Below, piece after piece: positions 10,399 to 49,159 of a stretch of DNA of 64,000 bases (positions within the stretch are counted from its first letter, which is position 1; every line of letters begins with the position of its first letter). The notes below the pieces were generated by a model. The model saw only the letters and a program-made list of their open reading frames with translations, was not told the origin of the DNA and did not search any database. The stretch spans positions 62,001-126,000 of the forward strand of contig JAGWNA010000003.1 in NCBI GenBank assembly GCA_028871555.1, written 5' to 3'. Made by a program: the position numbers and the translations under genes. This DNA is from Lysobacteraceae bacterium. Lineage in GTDB: Bacteria; Pseudomonadota; Gammaproteobacteria; Xanthomonadales; Rhodanobacteraceae.

Positions 10399-10802
10399 GG
10401 GAACGCGAGCCTAGCATGGTCGATCTTGCCAGGTCGTGTAGAAACATTCACTTGGCGTAGCTTGCGCAGGCGCCACATCAATTGCCCCCCCCGAATAGCC
10501 ACGATTTGGAGCGGTTTTGTGGGAGCGGCTTCAGCCGCAGGCAGTGCCTACCCTGCAGGGCCGTCATGTGTGGAGCCCGCTTGCGGGCGATGCTCTTGCT
10601 CTCAATGCCCTTAGCTCTTGCGATTTCCCACCGAGGAGCATCGCCCACAGGGTGGGCTCCTACAAGATATGGCTTGCGCTGCCGTAGGAGCGCACCCTGT
10701 GCGCGAATGGCTAGGCGGGGAACGGGCATCGCCCACAGGGCGGGCTCCGAGTGTCGAGAATCGGGTTATTCGGGATTCCCGATTGATGGCGGCAGGCTCC
10801 GG
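10399..10802. repeat. Intergenic REP cluster (five units)
   Basis: This 404-bp gap holds no gene. Five REP-like palindromes stand in it: 10519-10542 (TGTGGGAGCGGCTTCAGCCG type), 10568-10596 (TGGAGCCCGCTTGCGGGCGA), 10636-10663 (inverted GTAGGAGCCCACC type), 10684-10712 (GTAGGAGCGCACCCTGTGCG) and 10727-10751 (inverted). A further hairpin, AATCGGG...CCCGATT, lies at 10759-10783. A run of eight C is at 10485-10492. The upstream region of xseA (minus strand) must lie within 10399-10500. Confidence 0.75.
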
Positions 10803-37054: not shown

Positions 37055-38748
<1,694 letters not shown>

Positions 38749-38790
38749 TAAACTGCACCGCCGCAGCGTCGCGCAGCGCACGCCGTCGAC

Positions 38791-38930
38791 GGACAACGAT
38801 TTCCGGAGAGATGGCCGAGTGGTTCAAGGCAGCAGTCTTGACGCGAAGGCAGGAAGCCGAAGCGAACAGCGGCGCAGCCGCTGGCCCCGAAGGGGTGGAG
38901 GGCAGGATGCCCGGAATAAAACTGCCGTAG
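38791..38930 (+). pseudogene. Broken tRNA-Ser copy with 77-bp insert
   Basis: The bases 38791-38841 repeat 38956-39006, the leader and 5' half of the intact tRNA-Ser, with one mismatch in 51. The copy reaches the anticodon loop (38840), is interrupted by 77 GC-rich bases (38841-38917) that can form hairpins such as GCGGC-GCA-GCCGC, then resumes with AAAACTGCCGTAG (38918-38930). The variable arm, T arm and acceptor 3' side are missing, replaced by GGCGCGC-GAA-GCGCGCC. It cannot give a working tRNA. Confidence 0.75.
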
Positions 38931-38969
38931 TGGCGCGCGAAGCGCGCCTTCGACAGGACAACGATTTCC

Positions 38970-39059
38970 GGAGAGATGGCCGAGTGGTTTAAGGCAGCAG
39001 TCTTGAAAACTGCCGTAGGTGCAAGCCTACCGTGGGTTCGAATCCCACTCTCTCCGCCA
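38970..39059 (+). tRNA. tRNA-Ser (anticodon TGA)
   Basis: A complete 90-base class II tRNA with encoded CCA. The acceptor stem is GGAGAGA pairing with TCTCTCC. The anticodon arm is GCAGT-CTTGAAA-ACTGC with anticodon TGA at 39004-39006. A variable arm (GTAGGTGCAAGCCTAC) and T arm (GTGGG-TTCGAAT-CCCAC) follow. It stands downstream of serS. A broken copy lies 165 bp upstream, and low-GC DNA begins after its 3' end, so it is a likely integration site. Confidence 0.97.
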
Positions 39060-39781
39060 ATAATTAAGTGATAAGTTGCTAAATTTTTAAGTGGCTTTTG
39101 TGGAAGCAAAGACGGCTGGTATGCCATTGGGTATGCCAGCCGTTGTTGTTTGTAGTTCTGCCTTGTTGAGTCACGTTACTGAGCGATCAAGGCTTTCTCT
39201 CGAATCGCAGGTAGCTGGACAGAGTTCGTGCTTTCCACGATCTCGTCATGAGGGATAAGCAGGTACTTCCATGGCTTGCCCCCTACGTGGGCCGAACCCG
39301 AACCTGTATATCGAGGCCGGTACCGGCAACCAGGTGATCTCGGGCGTCTTGTCGGGCAAAGAGACTATTGGTTGCGGCTGATTCTTGGGATACGCTTCAC
39401 AGATTATGCGCCGTGCATTGTGAGGGAACGCAATGACGAGGGGATGCCGTAAGTCAGAAGCAAGCGCGGACGCGTCACGCCCGCGAAGGGTGGTGCGCTT
39501 GCGGATGTTCACCGTAGGGAAGCCCAAGGGCTCGGCCCATCTCCAGCGCCGTCATGGCCGGCTGCTTGTTCCGTACGCTTGGCGAGCTTTGCCGCTGCTG
39601 CGCGCTCCTCCCACATGATCGCCATCCAGCCGCACGGATCGACGCGGCTGGTGCAACACCTCATCCGTGATGACGAGTGCGATCAAAATTGGGCAAGCCA
39701 GTCACTCTCGGATTTCAAACATGTCGACGCAAAGTCGATGCGCGGCGGATTTGCTTTGGGTACCAGGAGGACAGACTTGCC
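39060..39781. other. Gene-poor stretch after tRNA-Ser with a decayed minus-strand ORF
   Basis: These 722 bases hold no intact gene I trust. A direct repeat, GGTATGCC, stands at 39118-39140. On the minus strand 39246-39527 an ORF from TTG (GFPTVNIRKRTTLRG at the start, MEVPAYPS at the end) reads like protein. Upstream of it, in two other frames, lie MTALEMGRALG and MWEERAAAAKLAKRTEQAA. The three pieces join naturally if two frameshifts are removed, so this is probably a pseudogene of an island gene I cannot name. Confidence 0.45.
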
Positions 39782-40636
39782 ATGAAACCGTTCGTGATGC
39801 GAAAACTCGTGGCGCAGAAATATGACCAACGCTGGCTGTGCCAGATGGTTGTGGCCATCGTGGCCATGGGGCTCTCCGGTTTGGCGGGTGCTGCAGGCAC
39901 GACCATCAAGGCCATTGTCGGTCGTGATTCGTTGGCGTGTCAGCAGTTTCTGGCCATGGTGAAAGCGGCAGGTATTCCGGACATGAGCGACGCACAGCTG
40001 TGCGACTTCCGGTTCGCGCGGTTGCCGGTTTTCAAAGCCAATCATTTCACTGCCATCGATTGGAGGCCGCTTGAGGTGAAAGACCCGCTGGAGATGTACC
40101 GGCATATGCGGATGGCCAATGTCCAGGGGCCTCCGGCCAACGACGGACCACCTTGGCCGGATCTGATGAAGGCAGTCGCGGAGGCCAAGGCCGACCATAA
40201 CCTGGGCTTTCGTACGGCCCAAGTGCAGTTGCAGGGCAAAGGCCCAGAGGTGACGGTGGTCGAAATGGATGTCATACGGAACTGCAGCAAATTGCCAAAG
40301 TACATGCTCCACGTGGGCGTTCCATATTATGCAATCTACAAGAACGTGGCGTTGCAGCATCCGCTACGGTTCTGGATCCCACACGAAAGTTGGCAAATGA
40401 TGTTGTGGAGCCACAATGGATTGCAGGTCCCCGTTCTACTTGGCCTACAGTCCTCCTGGAGCCCTCCGATTCCTCAGGCGAAACTGGTTGCTTACTTAAA
40501 TACAGTGACGTTGGACACATTGGTGCCAAATAAAGCGGCGACGGGCAAGTTCCACGACACCGTTTCTAATTACGGTAGTTGCGCATATGACTTGTGGTCC
40601 AAGACGAAGCCTAATGGCACCACCGTATCTCTGTAG
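39782..40636 (+). CDS. Secreted hypothetical protein, 284 aa (island)
   Basis: AGGAGG stands 10 bases before the ATG at 39782. The protein has a long basic N-terminal part, then a hydrophobic signal segment (MVVAIVAMGLSGLAGAAG), so it is probably exported. The mature part has conserved-looking features (DSLACQQFLAMV, DAQLCDFRFARL, WRPLEVKDPLEMYRHM, CAYDLWSK) and four cysteines that may form disulfides. I recognise no family. The downstream frameshifted gene is related: both show a C...LC-x3-F pattern and similar spacing. GC is lower than in the surrounding genes. Function unknown. Confidence 0.7.
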   Translation: MKPFVMRKLVAQKYDQRWLCQMVVAIVAMGLSGLAGAAGTTIKAIVGRDSLACQQFLAMVKAAGIPDMSDAQLCDFRFARLPVFKANHFTAIDWRPLEVKDPLEMYRHMRMANVQGPPANDGPPWPDLMKAVAEAKADHNLGFRTAQVQLQGKGPEVTVVEMDVIRNCSKLPKYMLHVGVPYYAIYKNVALQHPLRFWIPHESWQMMLWSHNGLQVPVLLGLQSSWSPPIPQAKLVAYLNTVTLDTLVPNKAATGKFHDTVSNYGSCAYDLWSKTKPNGTTVSL

Positions 40637-40647
40637 GAGATTACACC

Positions 40648-41467
40648 ATGACGAATGGATTTACACCTCTCACGCCAGTTTCCGGGGTCACTGAAGATCA
40701 GTTGCTCTTTTATAACCTTGCCCCAATGAAACTTAAGTCAGTGGCGATATTAATTGGCATGCTATGCACCACAAGTGCACTGGCAATGTCATACACCATT
40801 CGCCCCAACTATGAAAGTGATATGTGTCGAGCCGTCAGGCGCGCTTTCACTGAAGGGTTGGTGCTGGATGCCACGCAACCATTATGCGAGCGGCGCTTCA
40901 GTCTATCGCCAAAAGGGGGGGGATCTTGGTTTATCTAATGTCCAAATGAAATTGTTGCCAAAACAAATATATCCAGATTTATTGCGACAAATAATTATAG
41001 TGATTGGAAATGAGAAAAATACACAACTTTTGACCACTCAGAAACACAATGCCGAAATCCTTGAGCAACTAATGAAGCGGGATGTAAAAATTTACAGCTC
41101 AAATTTTGATGCTGACAACGGCGGGAAGGTCAAAAGCGTATACATTGAGGATGTCACATTTTGCGATATTAAAGACAGCTACCCGAATGGCAGTGCGTCT
41201 ACCTACATAAAAAATAGCGATGGATCACTAGACCCATCTTGGGGGGTGCGCAACGCGACCGCAGGTATTCCATTTATCTATGATAAACACACGTATTATA
41301 TGGCGTGGAAATCACTCAGGGGGAGTCCAGATAAAAACCTACTTGCTGAAATTGATATTAGCGACGCCGTACCTTATCGAAGTGGCCTGAGAGCAATAAC
41401 CCCGTACGCGTCACTTACTCCGCCTGAATGCATTATTTACCAGACTCGGAAAAGGATGCTTCCATGA
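40648..41467 (+). pseudogene. Secreted hypothetical protein, frameshifted at a G8 tract
   Basis: TAGGAG stands 8 bases before the ATG at 40648. The first frame encodes 26 residues, then a signal peptide (MKLKSVAILIGMLCTTSALA) and SDMCRAVRRAFTEG, up to LCERRFSLSPKGG, and stops at 40938. The rest (DLGLSNVQMKLLPKQ onward, to 41467) lies in the next frame. The switch is at eight consecutive G (40915-40922); with seven G the two parts join into one protein of about 272 residues that aligns with the preceding gene. It may be a pseudogene, a phase-variable gene or a sequencing error. DNA is AT-rich here. Confidence 0.65.
40915..40922 (+). repeat. G8 homopolymer inside a secreted-protein gene
   Basis: Eight G in a row follow AAAA, in an otherwise AT-rich gene. 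Length 8 puts the downstream half out of frame; length 7 would restore it. Tracts of this kind slip during replication and are a common basis of on/off switching. Confidence 0.85.
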
Positions 41468-41589
41468 CCATCGTCTTTCGCAATCGCGCAGGAGTTCTGC
41501 CCAGGTCATTGCGGCCGCGATCATCGGCATGTCGGGGAGTCCAGGCGACAGCGCGGGCCGTTGGTTCAGCGCGGTTTGCGGGCGTGGCC

Positions 41590-42465
41590 CTATTCGCCAC
41601 GGATTTTCCGGCGCAGGCGGAGCTCCTCGCGGCCTGCGTAGAAGGCCGCCGCTGCCACCATCAAGGCCATCAGATACCAGGTGATCAGGTAGCCGAGGTG
41701 GTTGTTGGGGAAATGGGTCACGGTCAGGCCTGCGCGGGGCCATGTGCTGCTGCCGGCGGGCGCGGCATCGGCATCGATGAAGTAGGGCGCAACCTGGACC
41801 GGCGGCAGGCCGCGCGCCGAAGCAATGGCCGCCGTGTCGCGTGAGTACCATTGGCCCCTGGCCGGTTGGTTGGGACGCAGAAAGCCGCCGCCGGGTTCCG
41901 GGAAACGCAGCAGTCCGCTCAGGCTGGTTTCGCCCGTCGGCGGCGCCAGCTTCGCGTAGGCGGGCGTGCCCGGCAAGGTGGCCGGGATATAGCCGCGATT
42001 GACCAGCACGGTGAAGCCGCGATCCGTGCGCAGCGGGGCGATGACCCAGAAACCGTAGCCCAGCCTGCTGGTGCCGTGCACCAGCGTCGGCGCGCCTTCG
42101 AGGAACCGGCCATGCAGCCGCACATGCAGGTATTGCTGCCGGCCGCGGGCAATCTGCGGCCACTGCGCGGGGCCGGGCGCGGCCACCGGCGGCGCGTGCA
42201 CGCGTGCGGCCACATCGCGGATCAGGTCGAGTTTCCAGTGGAGGCGGCGCACCTGCCAGTTGCCCAGCAGGATGAATACGCCGAAGAGCGCGGCCGCCAG
42301 GAGCATCCAGGCGGCCAGGAGCCTGCCGGACCTGGGGCGGCAGGGCTGCAAATCCGTCTGCGCGGTCCCGATCTCCGCCGCTGCCTGGTCCATGGAACCA
42401 CGATGGGCCGGCGCATCGTCGAAAGCCGGTCCTCGCGCAGCCGGATTTTCGCCTCGACCATTCAA
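41590..42465 (-). CDS. SURF1-family protein
   Basis: A 291-residue protein of the SURF1/Shy1 family, which helps heme a or o oxidase assembly. A membrane helix (LLAAWMLLAAALFGVFILLGNWQVRRLHWK) is followed by the family motifs FLEGAPTLVHGTSRLGYGFWVIAPLRT, VLVNRGYIP and LSGLLRFPEPG. A second helix near the end is LGYLITWYLMALMVAAAAFY, preceded by FPNNH. The start is TTG at 42465, with AGGAG 10 bases upstream; the ATG at 42393 has no such site. It is the last gene of the cyo cluster, 73 bp after cyoD. Confidence 0.9.
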   Translation of the reverse strand: MNGRGENPAARGPAFDDAPAHRGSMDQAAAEIGTAQTDLQPCRPRSGRLLAAWMLLAAALFGVFILLGNWQVRRLHWKLDLIRDVAARVHAPPVAAPGPAQWPQIARGRQQYLHVRLHGRFLEGAPTLVHGTSRLGYGFWVIAPLRTDRGFTVLVNRGYIPATLPGTPAYAKLAPPTGETSLSGLLRFPEPGGGFLRPNQPARGQWYSRDTAAIASARGLPPVQVAPYFIDADAAPAGSSTWPRAGLTVTHFPNNHLGYLITWYLMALMVAAAAFYAGREELRLRRKIRGE

Positions 42466-42538
42466 GTCCGACAGGCTCCTGGCGCAACCGGGCTGCGCAG
42501 CGTCCGGCTTTGCGCCGGGTCGTTACGCGAGCTGCGGC

Positions 42539-42946
42539 TCACGAGCCTTGCCGGTGATTCGTGTATTGCGGCGACATCGGCATCATGTTCGCGTTTTCGT
42601 TGTACATGACCCAGACCGAGGCGCCCAGCACGATCACCACCAGGACGATCGTGAAGATGAATGCCAGCATGTTCCAGCCGCTCTCCGACCTGGTGTCCAG
42701 GTGCAGGAAATAGACCACGTGCACCACGATCTGCACCACCGCCAGACCCAGCACGATGAGGATCGTGGCGAGGGAGCTGGAGATCGCATGGCCCATCACC
42801 AGCCAGAACGGGATGATGGTCAGGATCGCGGCCAGCACGAATCCGGTCAGATAGCCGCGCAGGCTCCCGTGATGCGAGTGCCCGGCATCGTGGTCGCCCG
42901 GATGCGGCGTGCCGTGTTCCGGCGCGGACGGGGACGGATGATTCAT
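42539..42946 (-). CDS. cyoD: Cytochrome bo3 quinol oxidase subunit IV
   Basis: A 135-residue protein: a His-rich N-terminal tail (HPGDHDAGHSHHGSLRGYLTGF), then three helices with IPFWLVMGHAI, VQIVVHVVYFLHLDTRSESGWNM and VVIVLGASVWVMYNENANMMP, the usual CyoD pattern. Its ATG overlaps the cyoC stop by 4 bases. It is a small structural subunit of the bo3-type oxidase. Confidence 0.95.
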   Translation of the reverse strand: MNHPSPSAPEHGTPHPGDHDAGHSHHGSLRGYLTGFVLAAILTIIPFWLVMGHAISSSLATILIVLGLAVVQIVVHVVYFLHLDTRSESGWNMLAFIFTIVLVVIVLGASVWVMYNENANMMPMSPQYTNHRQGS

Positions 42947-43569
42947 CGAAGCACTCCCACCAGATAGACGTAGCTGAAGACGCCGACCCATACCAGGTCG
43001 AGAAAATGCCAGAACATGCTCAGGCACAGCAGGCGCCGCCGGTTGGCCTCGGTGAGGCCGTATTTGCCCAGCTGGAGCATCAGCACCACCAGCCAGACGA
43101 TGCCGACCGTGACATGCAGGCCGTGCGTGCCGACCAGGGTGAAGAACGAGGACAGGAACGCGCTGCGTCCCGGACCCGCGCCATCGGCGATCATCGTGAC
43201 GAATTCGTGGATCTCCAGCCCCACGAAGCAAACCGCCAGCAGGCCGGAAATCGCCAGCCAGCCGAGCATGGCCCGTTTGCGCTGGCGCGCCATTTCCAGC
43301 ATGGCGAAACCGAACGTGACCGATGAAACCAGCAGCAGGGCCGTGTTCACGGCCAGCCCGGGAAGATCGAACACGTCGCGGGCGGTGGGGCCGCCCGCGT
43401 AGCTGGTACCGAGCACCGCGTTGCAGGCGAACAGCGCCGCAAAGATGAAGCAGTCGCTCATCAGGTAGAGCCAGAACCCGAGCAGGGTTCCGGTTTGCGG
43501 ATGCGCTTCCTCGCGGCACAGGAACTCGCGCGGCGCGCTGTGGACGGTATCGACGGCGATCGTATTCAT
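42943..43569 (-). CDS. cyoC: Cytochrome bo3 quinol oxidase subunit III
   Basis: A 208-residue protein with five hydrophobic helices. Diagnostic stretches are [61 protein letters not shown] and [24 protein letters not shown]. It overlaps cyoB and cyoD by 4 bases each. Confidence 0.96.
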
Positions 43570-45575
43570 GCGGTTGCGCCCTGTGCCTTCGGCTCCCAGT
43601 TGCCGGTGTGTTCGAATTCGCCCACTTGCTGCGCGGAGAGGTGGGTGTCACGGTCGTAGTCGAAGGTGTGCACGATGGCGACGGCAATCAGCGCGACAAA
43701 CGAAAGTGCCGCCAGCCACCAGATGTACCAGACCATGGCGAAACCGAAGACGGTGCCCAACCCGGCGAGCACCACGCCTGCGCCGGTGTTTTTCGGCATG
43801 TGGATGGCGTTGAAGCCCTCCAGCGGACGCTGGTAGCCATGTTTCTTCATGTCTGTCCAGGCGTCACGCTCGTGCACCAGCGGGATGAAGGCGAAGTTGT
43901 ACGGCGGCGGCGGCGAGGAGGTGGACCACTCCAGGGAGCGGCCGCCCCACGGATCGTTGCCCACGGCCAGTTCGTCGCGCCGACGGATACTGACGTAGAT
44001 CTGCATGACAAACGCAAGGATGCCAAGCAGGATCAGCAGCCCACCGCACGCCGCGATGATGAACCAGATCTGCAGGCTCGTATCGGTAAAGTGGCTCAGG
44101 CGGCGGGTGACCCCCATCAGGCCCAGCACGTACAACGGGCCGAACGCCACCCAGAAGCCGACCTGCCAGAACCAGAAGCTGAGCTTGCCCCAGAACTCGT
44201 CGAGCCGGAACCCGAACGCCTTGGGGAACCAGTAGTTGATGCCGGCAAACACGCCGAACACGACGCCCCCGATGATCACGTTGTGGAAGTGCGCCACCAG
44301 GAACAGGCTGTTGTGCAGCAGGAAATCCGCCGGCGCCACCGCCAGCATCACCCCGGTCATGCCGCCGATGGTGAAGGTGAACAGGAAGCCCATCGTCCAC
44401 AGCATCGGCACGGTGAAGCGCACGCGCCCGCGGTACATCGTGAACAGCCAGTTGAAGATCTTCACGCCGGTGGGGATCGAGATCATCATCGTGGTCAGCG
44501 CAAAGAACGAATTGACGTCGGCGCCCGAACCCATGGTGAAGAAGTGGTGCAGCCACACCAGGTAGGACAGCAGCATGATCGACGCGGTGGCGTAGACCAT
44601 CGACGAATAGCCGAACAGCCGCTTGCCCGAGAAGGTCGGGACGATCTCCGAATACAGGCCGAACATCGGCAGGATCAGGATGTACACCTCCGGGTGCCCC
44701 CAGACCCAGATCAGGTTGACGTACATCATCACGTTGCCGCCGGCCCCGATCGTGAAGAAGTGGGTTCCGATGTAGCGGTCCAGCGACAGCAGGAACAGCG
44801 TGGCGGTGAGGATAGGAAACGTCACCACGATCAACCCGCTGGTGCACAGCGTGGTCCACGAGAACATCGGCATCTTCATCAGCGTCATGCCCGGCGCGCG
44901 CATCTTGATGACGGTGACCACGAAGTTGATGCCGGTGAGCAGGGTGCCCAGGCCGGACAGTTGCAGGCCCCAGATGTAGTAATCCACACCGGGCCCCGGG
45001 CTTTGCCGCAGCTCCGACACCGGCGGCATGCCGAGCCAGCCGGCGTGCGAGAAGTCGCCGATGAACAGCGAGGTCATGAACAGCACCACGCCGGATACGG
45101 TCAGCCAGAAACTGAAATTGTTGAGGAACGGGAACGCCACGTCGCGCGCGCCGATCTGCAGCGGCATGACGAAGTTCATGAACCCCGCGATGTAGGGCAT
45201 CGCCACGAAGAAGATCATGATCGCGCCATGCGCGGTGAAGATCTGGTCGTAGTGGTGGGGCGGCAGGTAGCCCATGTTGCTGCCGAACGCCATCGCCTGC
45301 TGCGAACGCATCATCAGCGCGTCGGCAAAGCCGCGCAGCAGCATCACCGTGCCGAGCACCATGTACATGACGCCCAGCCGCTTGTGGTCAACGCTGGTGA
45401 ACCATTCGTTCCACAGGTAACCCCATTTGCGGTGGTAGGTGATCGCCGCCAGCACCGCGCCACCTCCCAGGGCCACGGCCACGAAGGTCCAGACCACGAT
45501 CATGTTGTCGAGCGGCAGCGAACTGAGCGACAGGCGCCCAAGCAGAAAATTCCAGATGGCGGGACGGTCGGGCAT
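43566..45575 (-). CDS. cyoB: Cytochrome bo3 quinol oxidase subunit I
   Basis: A 669-residue, about 15-helix catalytic subunit. It shows the copper/heme centre region [26 protein letters not shown] (with the His-Tyr crosslink site), WLHHFFTMG and [19 protein letters not shown], and the N-terminal [17 protein letters not shown]. The subunit reduces oxygen to water with electrons from ubiquinol and pumps protons. The ATG at 45575 begins [16 protein letters not shown]. It heads a three-gene overlap chain to cyoD. Confidence 0.97.
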
Positions 45576-45598
45576 GGTTTGAACCTCGAGAATGCGGG

Positions 45599-46594
45599 TC
45601 AGCGCGTCGCCGCGTCGTGCGCGGGCGACGTCGTCGATGGGGCGCCGGGCATGGCGTCGCCGGTGGAGTGGCGGTGCGCGGCATGGCCGGGATTGGCGTC
45701 GATGGCCATCGTCTGGTCCATGCACACCTGCCCCGGATCGACGCACTGGTCGAGAATGCGATGGTAAAGATCCGCCTCGAAGTGCGCGTAGTGGCGCACC
45801 GGTTCGGCACGGCTCGGCCGGTTCAGCCGATCGAACGCGCGGGTGTCCAGATCACCGCCGTTGGCGCGGACCCCGGCCACCCACCGGTCGAAGTCCTGCC
45901 GGCTCATGCCGTGGAAACGAAAGCGCATGTCAGTGAAGCCGTGGCCGCTGTAGTTGGACGAAAAACCGTCGAAATCGCCCGGCTTGTTGATCACCGCGTT
46001 CAGCACCGTCTGCATCCCGGGCATGGTGTAGATCATTCCCGCCAGCGAAGGCACGAAGAACGCGTTCATGGTCTCGGTCGAGGTGAGCTTGAAGTGGATC
46101 GGCACATCGACCGGAGCCGCCAGCTCGTTGACCGTGGCGATGCCGTACTGCGGATAGAAGAACAGCCACTTCCAGTCCAGCGAGACCACCTCGACCTCCA
46201 GCGGCCGGATGTCGGCCGCCACGGGGCGGCCGGCGGCGATACGGGTGAGCGAGCGATAGGGGTCAAGCTGGTGGGTGCCGATCCAGGTCATCGCGCCAAG
46301 CACGACGATGATCAACAGTGGCGCGGCCCAGACCACCAGTTCGAATTGGGTGGAGTGATCCCATTCGGGGTCATATTCGGCGTCCTTGTTCGTCGCCCGG
46401 TAGCGCCAGGCGATGACGCCGGTGGCGATCAGCACCGGCACGATGATCAGCGACATCAGGATCACCGAGGCGATCATCAGGTCGCTCTGCTGGCGCGCCA
46501 CGTCGCCGGCAGGGTGGAGCAGCACCAGATTGCAGCCGCCGAGCATGAGTGCCGGCGGAAACAAAAGCAGGCCGCGTAAACGTTTTGCGGACAT
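45599..46594 (-). CDS. cyoA: Cytochrome bo3 quinol oxidase subunit II (lipoprotein)
   Basis: A 331-residue subunit with a lipoprotein signal (LMLGGCN, lipid-attached Cys about residue 20), two membrane helices ([20 protein letters not shown] and [23 protein letters not shown]) and the periplasmic cupredoxin domain ([61 protein letters not shown]). The CuA ligands of cytochrome c oxidases are absent, as expected for a quinol oxidase. ATG 46594 is chosen because it starts the signal; 46627 is the alternative. It is divergent from an MFS gene. Confidence 0.95.
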
Positions 46595-46808
46595 GGGCAG
46601 GCTTGGGGATGGAGGGGGAGGTGCCATATGATAGTGCCTGCAGACGGCGCTTTCGATGCGACACGGCCGGTTCGACCCAGCGGGTGCATTCTTGCGGGGC
46701 ATGCGTGACGCGGTTCTTGTCGCATCAACAACCTCAATCCAGCCTGCGCAAGGCTCTTCGACATCTCCCGATGCGCCGCAAGGCCAGCATCGCACCCACG
46801 GAAGCATC

Positions 46809-48143
46809 ATGCCGACCAGTTACGCCCACCCAACGGATCTGCCGCCCGGCACAGCGCCTTCAGCGGCAGCGCAGGCTCATGCGCACGACGTCACGCCCGG
46901 AGATATTTCCATCGGCGTGGTGATCGGACGCATTTCCGAGTTCTTCGATTTTTTCGTGTTCGGGCTCGGTTGTGTGCTGGTCTTTCCGAAGGTGTTCTTT
47001 CCCTTCGCCAGCGAACTCGGCGGCATTTTCTACTCGTTCACGATCTTCGCGCTGGCGTTCATCGGGCGCCCGTTGGGCTCGTTGTTCTTCCTGATGCTGC
47101 AACGGGAGTTCGGGCGCGCGACCAAACTGACCGTCGCACTGTTCCTGCTCGGCATGACCACGGCAGGCATCGCCTTCCTGCCCGGGTACCGCACGCTCGG
47201 CATCGTGGCCATCGGCGCGCTGGCCCTGTTGCGGTTCGGCCAGGGCCTTGCCATCGGCGGCAGCTGGGACGGCCTTGCCTCGCTGCTGGCGCTCAATGCG
47301 CCGCGCAATCGCCGCGGCTGGTACGCGATGATTCCGCAGCTCGGCGCGCCGATCGGCTTCATCCTTGTTGCCGGCCTGTTCGCCTACCTGATGCTCAGCC
47401 TGACGCCGGGCGAGTTCTTCGCATGGGGCTGGCGCTATCCGTTCTTTGTGGCCTTCGCCATCAATGTGGTGGCCCTGTTCGCCCGGCTGCGGCTGGTGGT
47501 CACACCCGAATACGCGACGATGCTCAAGTTGCGCGAGCTGGAGCCATCGCCGGTGGGCGAGCTGGTGCGCACGCAGGGCCGGGCCATCGCGCTGGGCGCG
47601 TTTGCGCCACTGGCCAGCTACGCGCTGTTCCATCTGGTAACCATCTTCGCGTTGTCCTGGGCGCTGTTGTTCACCAGACAATCGCCGACCAGCTTCCTGC
47701 TGGTGCAGATCGTCGGCGCTGCGATCGCGATTCCGTGCATGTTCCTGTCCGGGCTCATCGCCGATCGTTACGGCCGCCGCATGACGCTGGCGGTATGCGG
47801 CGTGCTGATCGCGATCTACAGCGGCTGGACCCCGCTCATGCTGGCCGGCGGCACAGCCGAGGGCTACCTGTTCATCATCATCGGTTTCGCGTTGCTCGGC
47901 CTGTCGCACGCGCAGGCAGCCGGCGCGGTGAACTCGAGCTTCCTCAGCTACTACCGGTACACCGGTGCGCTGATCACCTCCGACCTCGGCTGGCTGCTGG
48001 GTGCGGGTTTTGCGCCGCTGGTGGCGTTGTCGCTGTCGGTCTACCTGGGCGTGGGCTACGTCGGCCTGTACCTGCTCTCTGGCGCCGCGGGCACGCTGGG
48101 CGCGCTGTGGATCAGCCGGGCCGGCGGCATGCCGAACGATTGA
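46809..48143 (+). CDS. MFS transporter, metabolite:H+ symporter type
   Basis: A 444-residue 12-helix transporter. GRISEFFDFFVFGLGCVLVFPKVFFP at helix 1 and the loop GRPLGSLFFLMLQREFGRATKLT are typical of the metabolite:H+ symporter branch (ShiA/ProP relatives). The helix 4-5 region RFGQGLAIGGSWDGLASLLALNAPRNRRGWYAM and the second-half GLIADRYGRRMTLAV also fit. Substrate cannot be told. It is divergent from cyoA across 214 bp, so it may share regulation with the oxidase. ATG at 46809. Confidence 0.88.
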   Translation: MPTSYAHPTDLPPGTAPSAAAQAHAHDVTPGDISIGVVIGRISEFFDFFVFGLGCVLVFPKVFFPFASELGGIFYSFTIFALAFIGRPLGSLFFLMLQREFGRATKLTVALFLLGMTTAGIAFLPGYRTLGIVAIGALALLRFGQGLAIGGSWDGLASLLALNAPRNRRGWYAMIPQLGAPIGFILVAGLFAYLMLSLTPGEFFAWGWRYPFFVAFAINVVALFARLRLVVTPEYATMLKLRELEPSPVGELVRTQGRAIALGAFAPLASYALFHLVTIFALSWALLFTRQSPTSFLLVQIVGAAIAIPCMFLSGLIADRYGRRMTLAVCGVLIAIYSGWTPLMLAGGTAEGYLFIIIGFALLGLSHAQAAGAVNSSFLSYYRYTGALITSDLGWLLGAGFAPLVALSLSVYLGVGYVGLYLLSGAAGTLGALWISRAGGMPND

Positions 48144-48372
48144 CGCCGCAGCCCCCGGCTGGCATCGACTGGACGGGTCTTGGGGCTTGAGGTGTTTCGC
48201 ATCGATCCACGTGCGGCCGCCAGCGAGTCCGGGCGACCGGCGAATCGCGGTTCCGCCCCGCGGAATGATGGCCGAGATCAAATTCAACGAGGATCGCGTG
48301 CCGGCACGATCAGCCGGCTGCCTGTCGGGGCATCCGTGGCATCGGCAAAGCTTCGTTACGAAGCGGCCGCGA

Positions 48373-48552
48373 TCAATGCACGCTCGGCACGGCGTCGATC
48401 GACCACCGCCGCAACCGGGCATGCTGTTCCTGGGTTTGCAGTGCTTCGATCAGTTCGTCTGCTTCTTCACGGGTCCTGAAGAGCACTACCGGTTCGCCGG
48501 CGTCGGTGTCGTAGACCAGAAAGGCGTTGTTTCTCCTTCGTACTTCCAGCAT
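48373..48552 (-). CDS. Small conserved protein, 59 aa (twin A)
   Basis: AGGAG stands 8 bases before the ATG at 48552. The 59-residue product begins MLEVRRRNNAFLVYDTDAGE and ends LRRWSIDAVPSVH. It is clearly related to the 59-residue product of the gene at 49160-49339: I count 36 identical positions of 59 in an ungapped hand alignment. No family is recognised; the predicted pattern is two or three short strands and one helix (REEADELIEALQ). The 229 bp between the MFS gene and this one hold nothing I can identify. Confidence 0.7.
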   Translation of the reverse strand: MLEVRRRNNAFLVYDTDAGEPVVLFRTREEADELIEALQTQEQHARLRRWSIDAVPSVH

Positions 48553-49159
48553 GACCAGACTCCTGCTCAGTGGAGGTGCCCCGGTTCGTCGGTTCCGCCG
48601 GGTGTTGCGGCATCGGCTGTCGCCTGACGCCGATCGGTTCGATCCAGACCTCCGGGTCCGGCTATCATGCGATCGTGTTGCTGAACGGTTGATCAGCGGC
48701 AGGCTGTCTTGCACGAAAAACGATGCCGGCTGCGCTGGTCCGGTCGCCGGCGCGGGCCGTGAGCGGCCGGTCGGGTGCCGGCAAAACGCCGGGTTCCGAT
48801 CCCGGCCATGGCACGCAAGGCATCAACCCATCGCAGCTAAGGTGGTGTCGCATGCCGCGCCCTGCAGGCCGATGCGGAAACCGGGGTGCCACCATCGTGC
48901 CGCGGAACGCGTCGCGATCGGGGATGCCCGTCGTCGCAGGGTTGTGCGCTTCAGCTGCGAGGGGAGCGAACTTGGCGCTGTGGCAACAATGTCGGCAAAC
49001 CCCTACAAGCTCCCGCGCCGCTTTCTGATGCACGGTCCGCGCGCCCTCCCGTAGGATGGGGCGATCCCGCGCGTGAAGTCCAGGTCGGCAGGATGCTGAC
49101 GTCGGAATGCCCATGGACCGGACGCGCGGGATACTTCCGGACATCATGGAGCCATGGAA
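48553..49159. other. Intergenic region between the twin small genes
   Basis: No reliable gene is seen in these 607 bases; the open frames are typical GC noise and lack ribosome binding sites. The twin genes point away from each other, so the region must contain both promoters. An 11-base inverted repeat, ATCCCGCGCGT at 49064-49074 and ACGCGCGGGAT at 49122-49132, lies just before twin B. Confidence 0.4.

Follow-up and report, generated by a model that had tools for sequence, protein, structure and literature searches.

What might explain why a gene for an exported protein, lying in a low-GC island next to a tRNA gene, is divided between two reading frames at a run of eight guanines? The gene belongs to the 64,000-nucleotide stretch of Lysobacteraceae DNA analysed here, which we call the window, and the original prediction was a phase-variable on/off switch, with a dead gene or a sequencing error named as alternatives. 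The reading that we favour, at a probability of about 0.57, is that the locus is the remnant of a toxin-immunity module, in which a first immunity gene (imm1) is intact, the toxin gene is reduced to its start, and a second, immunity-like gene (imm2) has been broken by a slip in the G8 run that is fixed or on its way to fixation. Among mechanisms for the break itself, the most likely is that an orphan immunity gene was inactivated by a recent slip, followed by an assembly error and then by phase variation. What appeared to be a switch would become a readable fossil of toxin-immunity turnover.

One gene in two reading frames

The G8 run occupies positions 40915-40922 on the + strand, at codon 90 of a 96-codon open reading frame that extends from an ATG at 40648 to a stop at 40938. 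The C-terminal half of imm2 (40922-41467, + strand) is read in a separate frame, +1 relative to the N-terminal frame by the ORF coordinates, which crosses the tract and stays open until the stop at 41467. This 181-codon frame stays open in none of 5000 base shuffles, and its homology extends up to the C-terminus of an imm2 gene in G171, a genome of the same genus; it is therefore not a product of chance. Residue alignments to the two homologues described below place the frame switch at about 40915-40927, that is, on the G8 tract, so that a change in tract length would alter the reading frame. The prediction that the tract is the only long homopolymer of the gene and lies one third of the way in has held: it is the longest run in 40648-41467, about 33% along, and the next longest are an A6 (41209-41214) and a G6 (41241-41246).

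Intact copies of imm2 exist elsewhere, in that two homologues are each a single open gene matching both halves. One is in G171 (L019:8821-9585, 254 aa) and the other in G086, of the same family (L020:9790-10479, 229 aa). With the two halves used as separate queries, the N-terminal half matched them at E values of 2.8e-11 (G171) and 3.8e-7 (G086), and the C-terminal half at 6e-26 and 7.2e-19, respectively, bearing out the claim that a secreted-protein gene has been split at G8. Neither homologue (0 of the 2 found) has a G tract at the corresponding site. The C-terminal half is matched in 3 of 233 genomes of the family, and the G171 protein in 3 of 398 genomes of the order, this genome being included in both counts. 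Synonymous divergence from G171 is saturated (pS 0.84), so selection on imm2 cannot be judged from this pair.

The N-terminal part of imm2 (40726-40914, + strand), delimited by homology to both intact genes, has a signal peptide, recognized by eye, and the C-terminal part is complete to the homologous C-terminus, ending at the same point as the G171 protein. Export, as originally proposed for the first half, is retained, whereas the proposed start at 40648 is not, the signal peptide likely beginning at the ATG at 40726, which is the start position of the G086 homologue. The four cysteines that are invariant in the alignment of the imm1 family (alignment A1, below) are all found in the split gene, two per half, as judged by eye from the translations, and the short imm2 product would hold only the first two of them. 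Alignment of the C-terminal half to the homologues revealed no further inactivating lesion downstream of G8, as had been foreseen. Such a lesion would be expected in a long-dead gene, and the break must therefore be recent or reversible, or else an error of the assembly.

The split gene had been described as parallel to an upstream paralogue. The shared four cysteines support a relationship, which is remote rather than close, since hhalign relates imm1 and imm2 with an E value of 4e-4 at a probability of only 35%. In G171, imm2 is open about 3.6 kb past the same tRNA gene, and the imm1 relative upstream of it is a fragment (E 1.6e-4; 71 residues, 31% identity), apparently the reverse pattern, with gene 2 intact and gene 1 decayed. 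In G086, the imm2 homologue precedes, by about 1 kb, an RHS-repeat open frame of 2,803 residues.

The imm1 family, giant RTX proteins and a toxin-like start

The imm1 gene (39782-40636, + strand) encodes an intact exported four-cysteine protein, proposed from its homologues, the adjacency of those homologues to toxin genes and its pN/pS to be the immunity protein of an RTX toxin resembling a lysozyme. Relatives were found in 10 other genomes among the 233 family genomes searched. The search gave 13 match rows, of which one, a weak match to an 851-aa open frame in G206, was left unfollowed, and alignment A1 comprises 13 sequences, the first of two copies in G173 (L028:8276-8737) being left out. 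Compared with its relative in G186, imm1 has 67% identical residues over 276 codons, a pN of 0.20 and a pS of 0.59, as for a gene under constraint, even though the toxin domain was found in neither this genome nor G186. Pfam has no family for imm1, for the G186 imm1 or for either half of imm2, the sole match, below threshold, being to a holin (E 0.13); neither imm1 nor the imm2 of G171 had a PHROG match at E 0.1; the best solved-structure relative of the four-cysteine alignment had an E value of 0.24 and is not credible; and an AlphaFold model of imm1 from the single sequence has a mean pLDDT of 34, with no usable fold.

The link to a toxin comes from gene order. The N-terminal domain of a giant RTX protein in G060 is matched in 4 of 233 family genomes (G060 itself, G078, G173 and G113) and has no match in the genome of the window. 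Directly upstream of the toxin gene, on the same strand, all four carry an imm1 relative, separated from it by 17 nt in G060, 24 nt in G078 and 71 nt in G113, and overlapping it by 8 nt in G173. This adjacency in 4/4 genomes, as indirect support, lets the upstream gene be read as an immunity gene, and imm1 is probably an exported immunity protein, for which we infer both the immunity function and the secretion route. Three of the toxin genes are giant, and that of G113 is a truncated remnant without RTX repeats. The repeats are recognized by Pfam in G060 (E 2.5e-85) and G173 (E 1.8e-78), with 11 GGxGxD motifs counted in the frame of G078. The N-terminal domain is weakly phage-lysozyme-like: the G173 protein matches Phage_lysozyme at an E value of 9e-4, just short of the curated cut-off, and the G060 protein matches a PHROG endolysin at 0.012, while Pfam detects no lysozyme domain in the latter at E 0.1, and no solved structure is related to its N-terminal domain at E 0.01. 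A lysozyme activity is accordingly suggested only tentatively by these matches. Six other imm1-like loci (L018, L021, L025, L026, L027 and L029) have no toxin motif of either kind in the stretch read, which in L029 stops at the contig end about 270 bases past the imm1-like gene, so some members of the family are orphans or have another role. A second family of similar exported appearance, grouped by eye and with no Pfam match, recurs at L020:10218-11363, L023:9647-10534 and L024:10768-11721.

The imm1-RTX adjacency is thus seen in G060, G078 and G173, and in G113 beside a truncated remnant; the window keeps only a toxin-like start. The first 24 or so codons of the split ORF (40648-40725, + strand), in frame with the start of imm2, resemble the starts of toxin genes. 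In ungapped comparison these residues score 54 against the G060 toxin and 46 against that of G078, and no more than 20 against any non-toxin among 1025 ORF starts; none of 20,000 shuffles reaches the score of either toxin. The control set consisted of starts of ORFs of at least 100 aa, some repeated through overlapping loci; the toxin of G078, extending past the end of its locus, was scored separately, and the resemblance had been spotted by eye before scoring. With scores of 20 for the G173 start (shuffle fraction 0.0017) and -13 for the remnant in G113, the putative vestige is similar to two of the four toxin starts. BLASTP aligns it to the G060 toxin with 9/18 identical residues (E 7e-5 with three sequences in the set). 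The spacing is also similar, the ATG at 40648 lying 11 nt past the imm1 stop and the G060 toxin start 17 nt past the stop of its imm1 relative. A Shine-Dalgarno-like AGGAG (40635-40639, + strand), overlapping the imm1 stop codon, precedes this ATG and is a putative ribosome-binding site. The simplest reading is that a deletion of the toxin body would have put imm2 behind the start signal of the toxin.

Elsewhere in this genome, the RTX open frame of locus L071 (G000, contig C29) encodes 2733 residues and is truncated by the contig end, so that the N-terminus is missing there. As that gene is cut at the end of C29, a partner toxin elsewhere in the 91%-complete genome is possible.

A variable site at tRNA-Ser

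The module is adjacent to a tRNA-Ser (TGA) gene (38970-39059, + strand), identified with ARAGORN, and comparison of genomes of the genus, in which the sequence 3' of the tRNA differs, marks this position as an integration hotspot. The GC content of the island is 43-60%, compared with about 67% around it and in the window. In the near relative G169, with nucleotide identity of about 88-94% over aligned stretches, the homologue of window positions 48369-48371 lies within about 20 bp of the tRNA, and about 9.3 kb (39060-48368) are missing, including SURF1 and further genes for cytochrome oxidase beyond the island, as named from their translations. The variable segment may therefore extend past the island of two genes. 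In a second near relative, G185, the tRNA and the homologue of window position 48371 are separated by about 1.1 kb of different sequence. The island is thus absent from that site in both near relatives, and the island setting of the original prediction holds. In six further genomes of the genus, the sequence past the same tRNA is different or only partly similar. No credible repeat of the tRNA end was found in the window at the distal end of the island, Rfam detected nothing besides the tRNA over 38500-49000, and the genome_contigs, plasmids and phages collections gave no match. Near the start of SURF1, about 170 bp within 42310-42490 have many copies, about 74-88% identical, in this genome and the genus.

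What may have split imm2

We propose the following history. An antibacterial toxin-immunity module would have been acquired next to tRNA-Ser, with imm1 surviving as an intact exported immunity protein; a deletion would have removed the giant RTX toxin, leaving only its start and some 24 codons, and these leftover codons would now be read in frame into imm2. A recent slipped-strand indel on the G8 run may then have frameshifted imm2, and the resulting allele may be fixed or heading to fixation, since imm2 no longer meets its toxin. From the sequence as it stands, the cell would make imm1, and imm2 could yield no more than a truncated product carrying two of the four cysteines. Both the deletion as origin of the fusion and the fixation of the G8 allele are steps that we infer.

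The main competitor is an assembly or sequencing error, in which the true tract length differs and imm2 is intact. Homopolymers are the classic site of such errors, the assembly is a draft of 126 contigs, 91% complete, and the lack of a second lesion in the C-terminal half is compatible with a gene that was never broken. In a coarse translated comparison with relatives, on the other hand, the hits of 7 out of 40 relative ORFs fell in more than one frame of the window; by eye, these seven seem to be overlapping or antisense ORFs, and most of each region is taken up by long open frames. Another C8 run of the same genome stays in frame within its ORF, which is presumably rimM-like. We regard an error as possible, though a clear minority view.

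Phase variation, in which slipped-strand mispairing at G8 would toggle imm2 on and off, has in its favour that the tract sits at the frame switch with nothing else seen to be broken, and a C7/C8 difference at fimX of Bordetella pertussis accompanies an altered transcript level in the available part of PMC1891110. The same part of that paper has G/C tracts exceeding chance only above 8 bases, the G8 is short, and neither imm2 homologue (2/2) has a tract. In the 3.36-Mb draft genome, 11 distinct G/C runs reach 8 bases or more, including two of 9, against 10.6 runs of 8 or more and 1.8 of 9 or more predicted by a second-order Markov model fitted to the window; long G tracts are not in excess across the genome. 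Locally, a G8/C8 run is rare for the composition of the gene (0.004-0.025 expected per 820 bp), and the window, with 2 runs, is rich by the Markov model (0.2 expected) and not by dinucleotide shuffling of the window (3.2 expected per 64 kb). Inspection of ORFs by eye, which was non-systematic and included one tract near a contig end and one at window position 10485, found no obvious split gene at the ten other G8/G9 tracts. With nearly all of the toxin of the module gone, there is also no obvious gain from switching its immunity gene. Phase variation is therefore improbable, and a dead gene or a sequencing error, the alternatives offered with the prediction, fits better. Less probable still is the specific version in which G8 slippage would be a heritable switch of protection against an RTX lysozyme-like toxin of neighbouring kin, by which one clone would contain protected and unprotected cells. 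Titles and opening lines of the literature on phase-variable immunity genes describe no such pair, a search on phase variation in Rhodanobacter found nothing, and a viral_contigs scan with the tract flank gave no match.

Recoding, in which the ribosome or the transcription machinery would slip on the tract and so yield full-length imm2, we consider the most remote of these accounts. The A4G8 run might be a plausible slip site, but the homologues have no such site and the C-terminal frame is +1, so the common -1 ribosomal slip cannot join the halves. We rejected -1 ribosomal frameshifting on this misfit of the frames.

The gene neighbourhoods also bring out an exported four-cysteine family without significant Pfam match, tied to giant RTX lysozyme-like proteins, a candidate antibacterial pair that is directly testable. 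In the available part of PMC6759196, FrpC/FrpD-type systems and Smlt3024/Smlt3025 combine an exported partner with a protein that has an N-terminal effector domain; the pair proposed here from the relatives is similar in both respects, and has RTX repeats as in FrpC (PMC6759196). Unlike in those systems, the effector domain here is weakly phage-lysozyme-like and the partner is a four-cysteine protein without significant Pfam match, which we set beside FrpD and Smlt3025 by description only. The same portion of that paper has X-Tfe/X-Tfi of the Xanthomonadales T4SS with a putative immunity gene upstream of the effector, as here, some X-Tfe being lysozyme-like (PMC6759196). Unlike X-Tfe, the G060 and G173 toxins have RTX repeats and no XVIPCD among their Pfam matches at E 0.1. 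Pfam presumably contains the XVIPCD model. Beyond the related pair in PMC6759196, titles and opening lines of the literature linking RTX toxins to lysozyme or muramidase and to immunity or T1SS, and of that on orphan immunity with RTX, do not describe the pair, and those on decayed polymorphic toxin loci, among the matches listed, hold none matching it. More than one immunity-like gene per locus recalls the staphylococcal strings of non-identical esaG immunity genes, as far as PMC9484751 was available, though the protein family and the secretion system are different. The frame change at a homopolymer in an exported-protein gene resembles that of phase-variable genes of Neisseria and Bordetella (available parts of PMC1891110 and PMC5084427), unlike which the tract is not kept in homologues and the genome has no long-G excess. 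At L034:2002-2009, a C8 run is followed by short tandem CCGAAAA-like repeats within an ORF. We take this ORF to be nucleotide-sugar-dehydrogenase-like.
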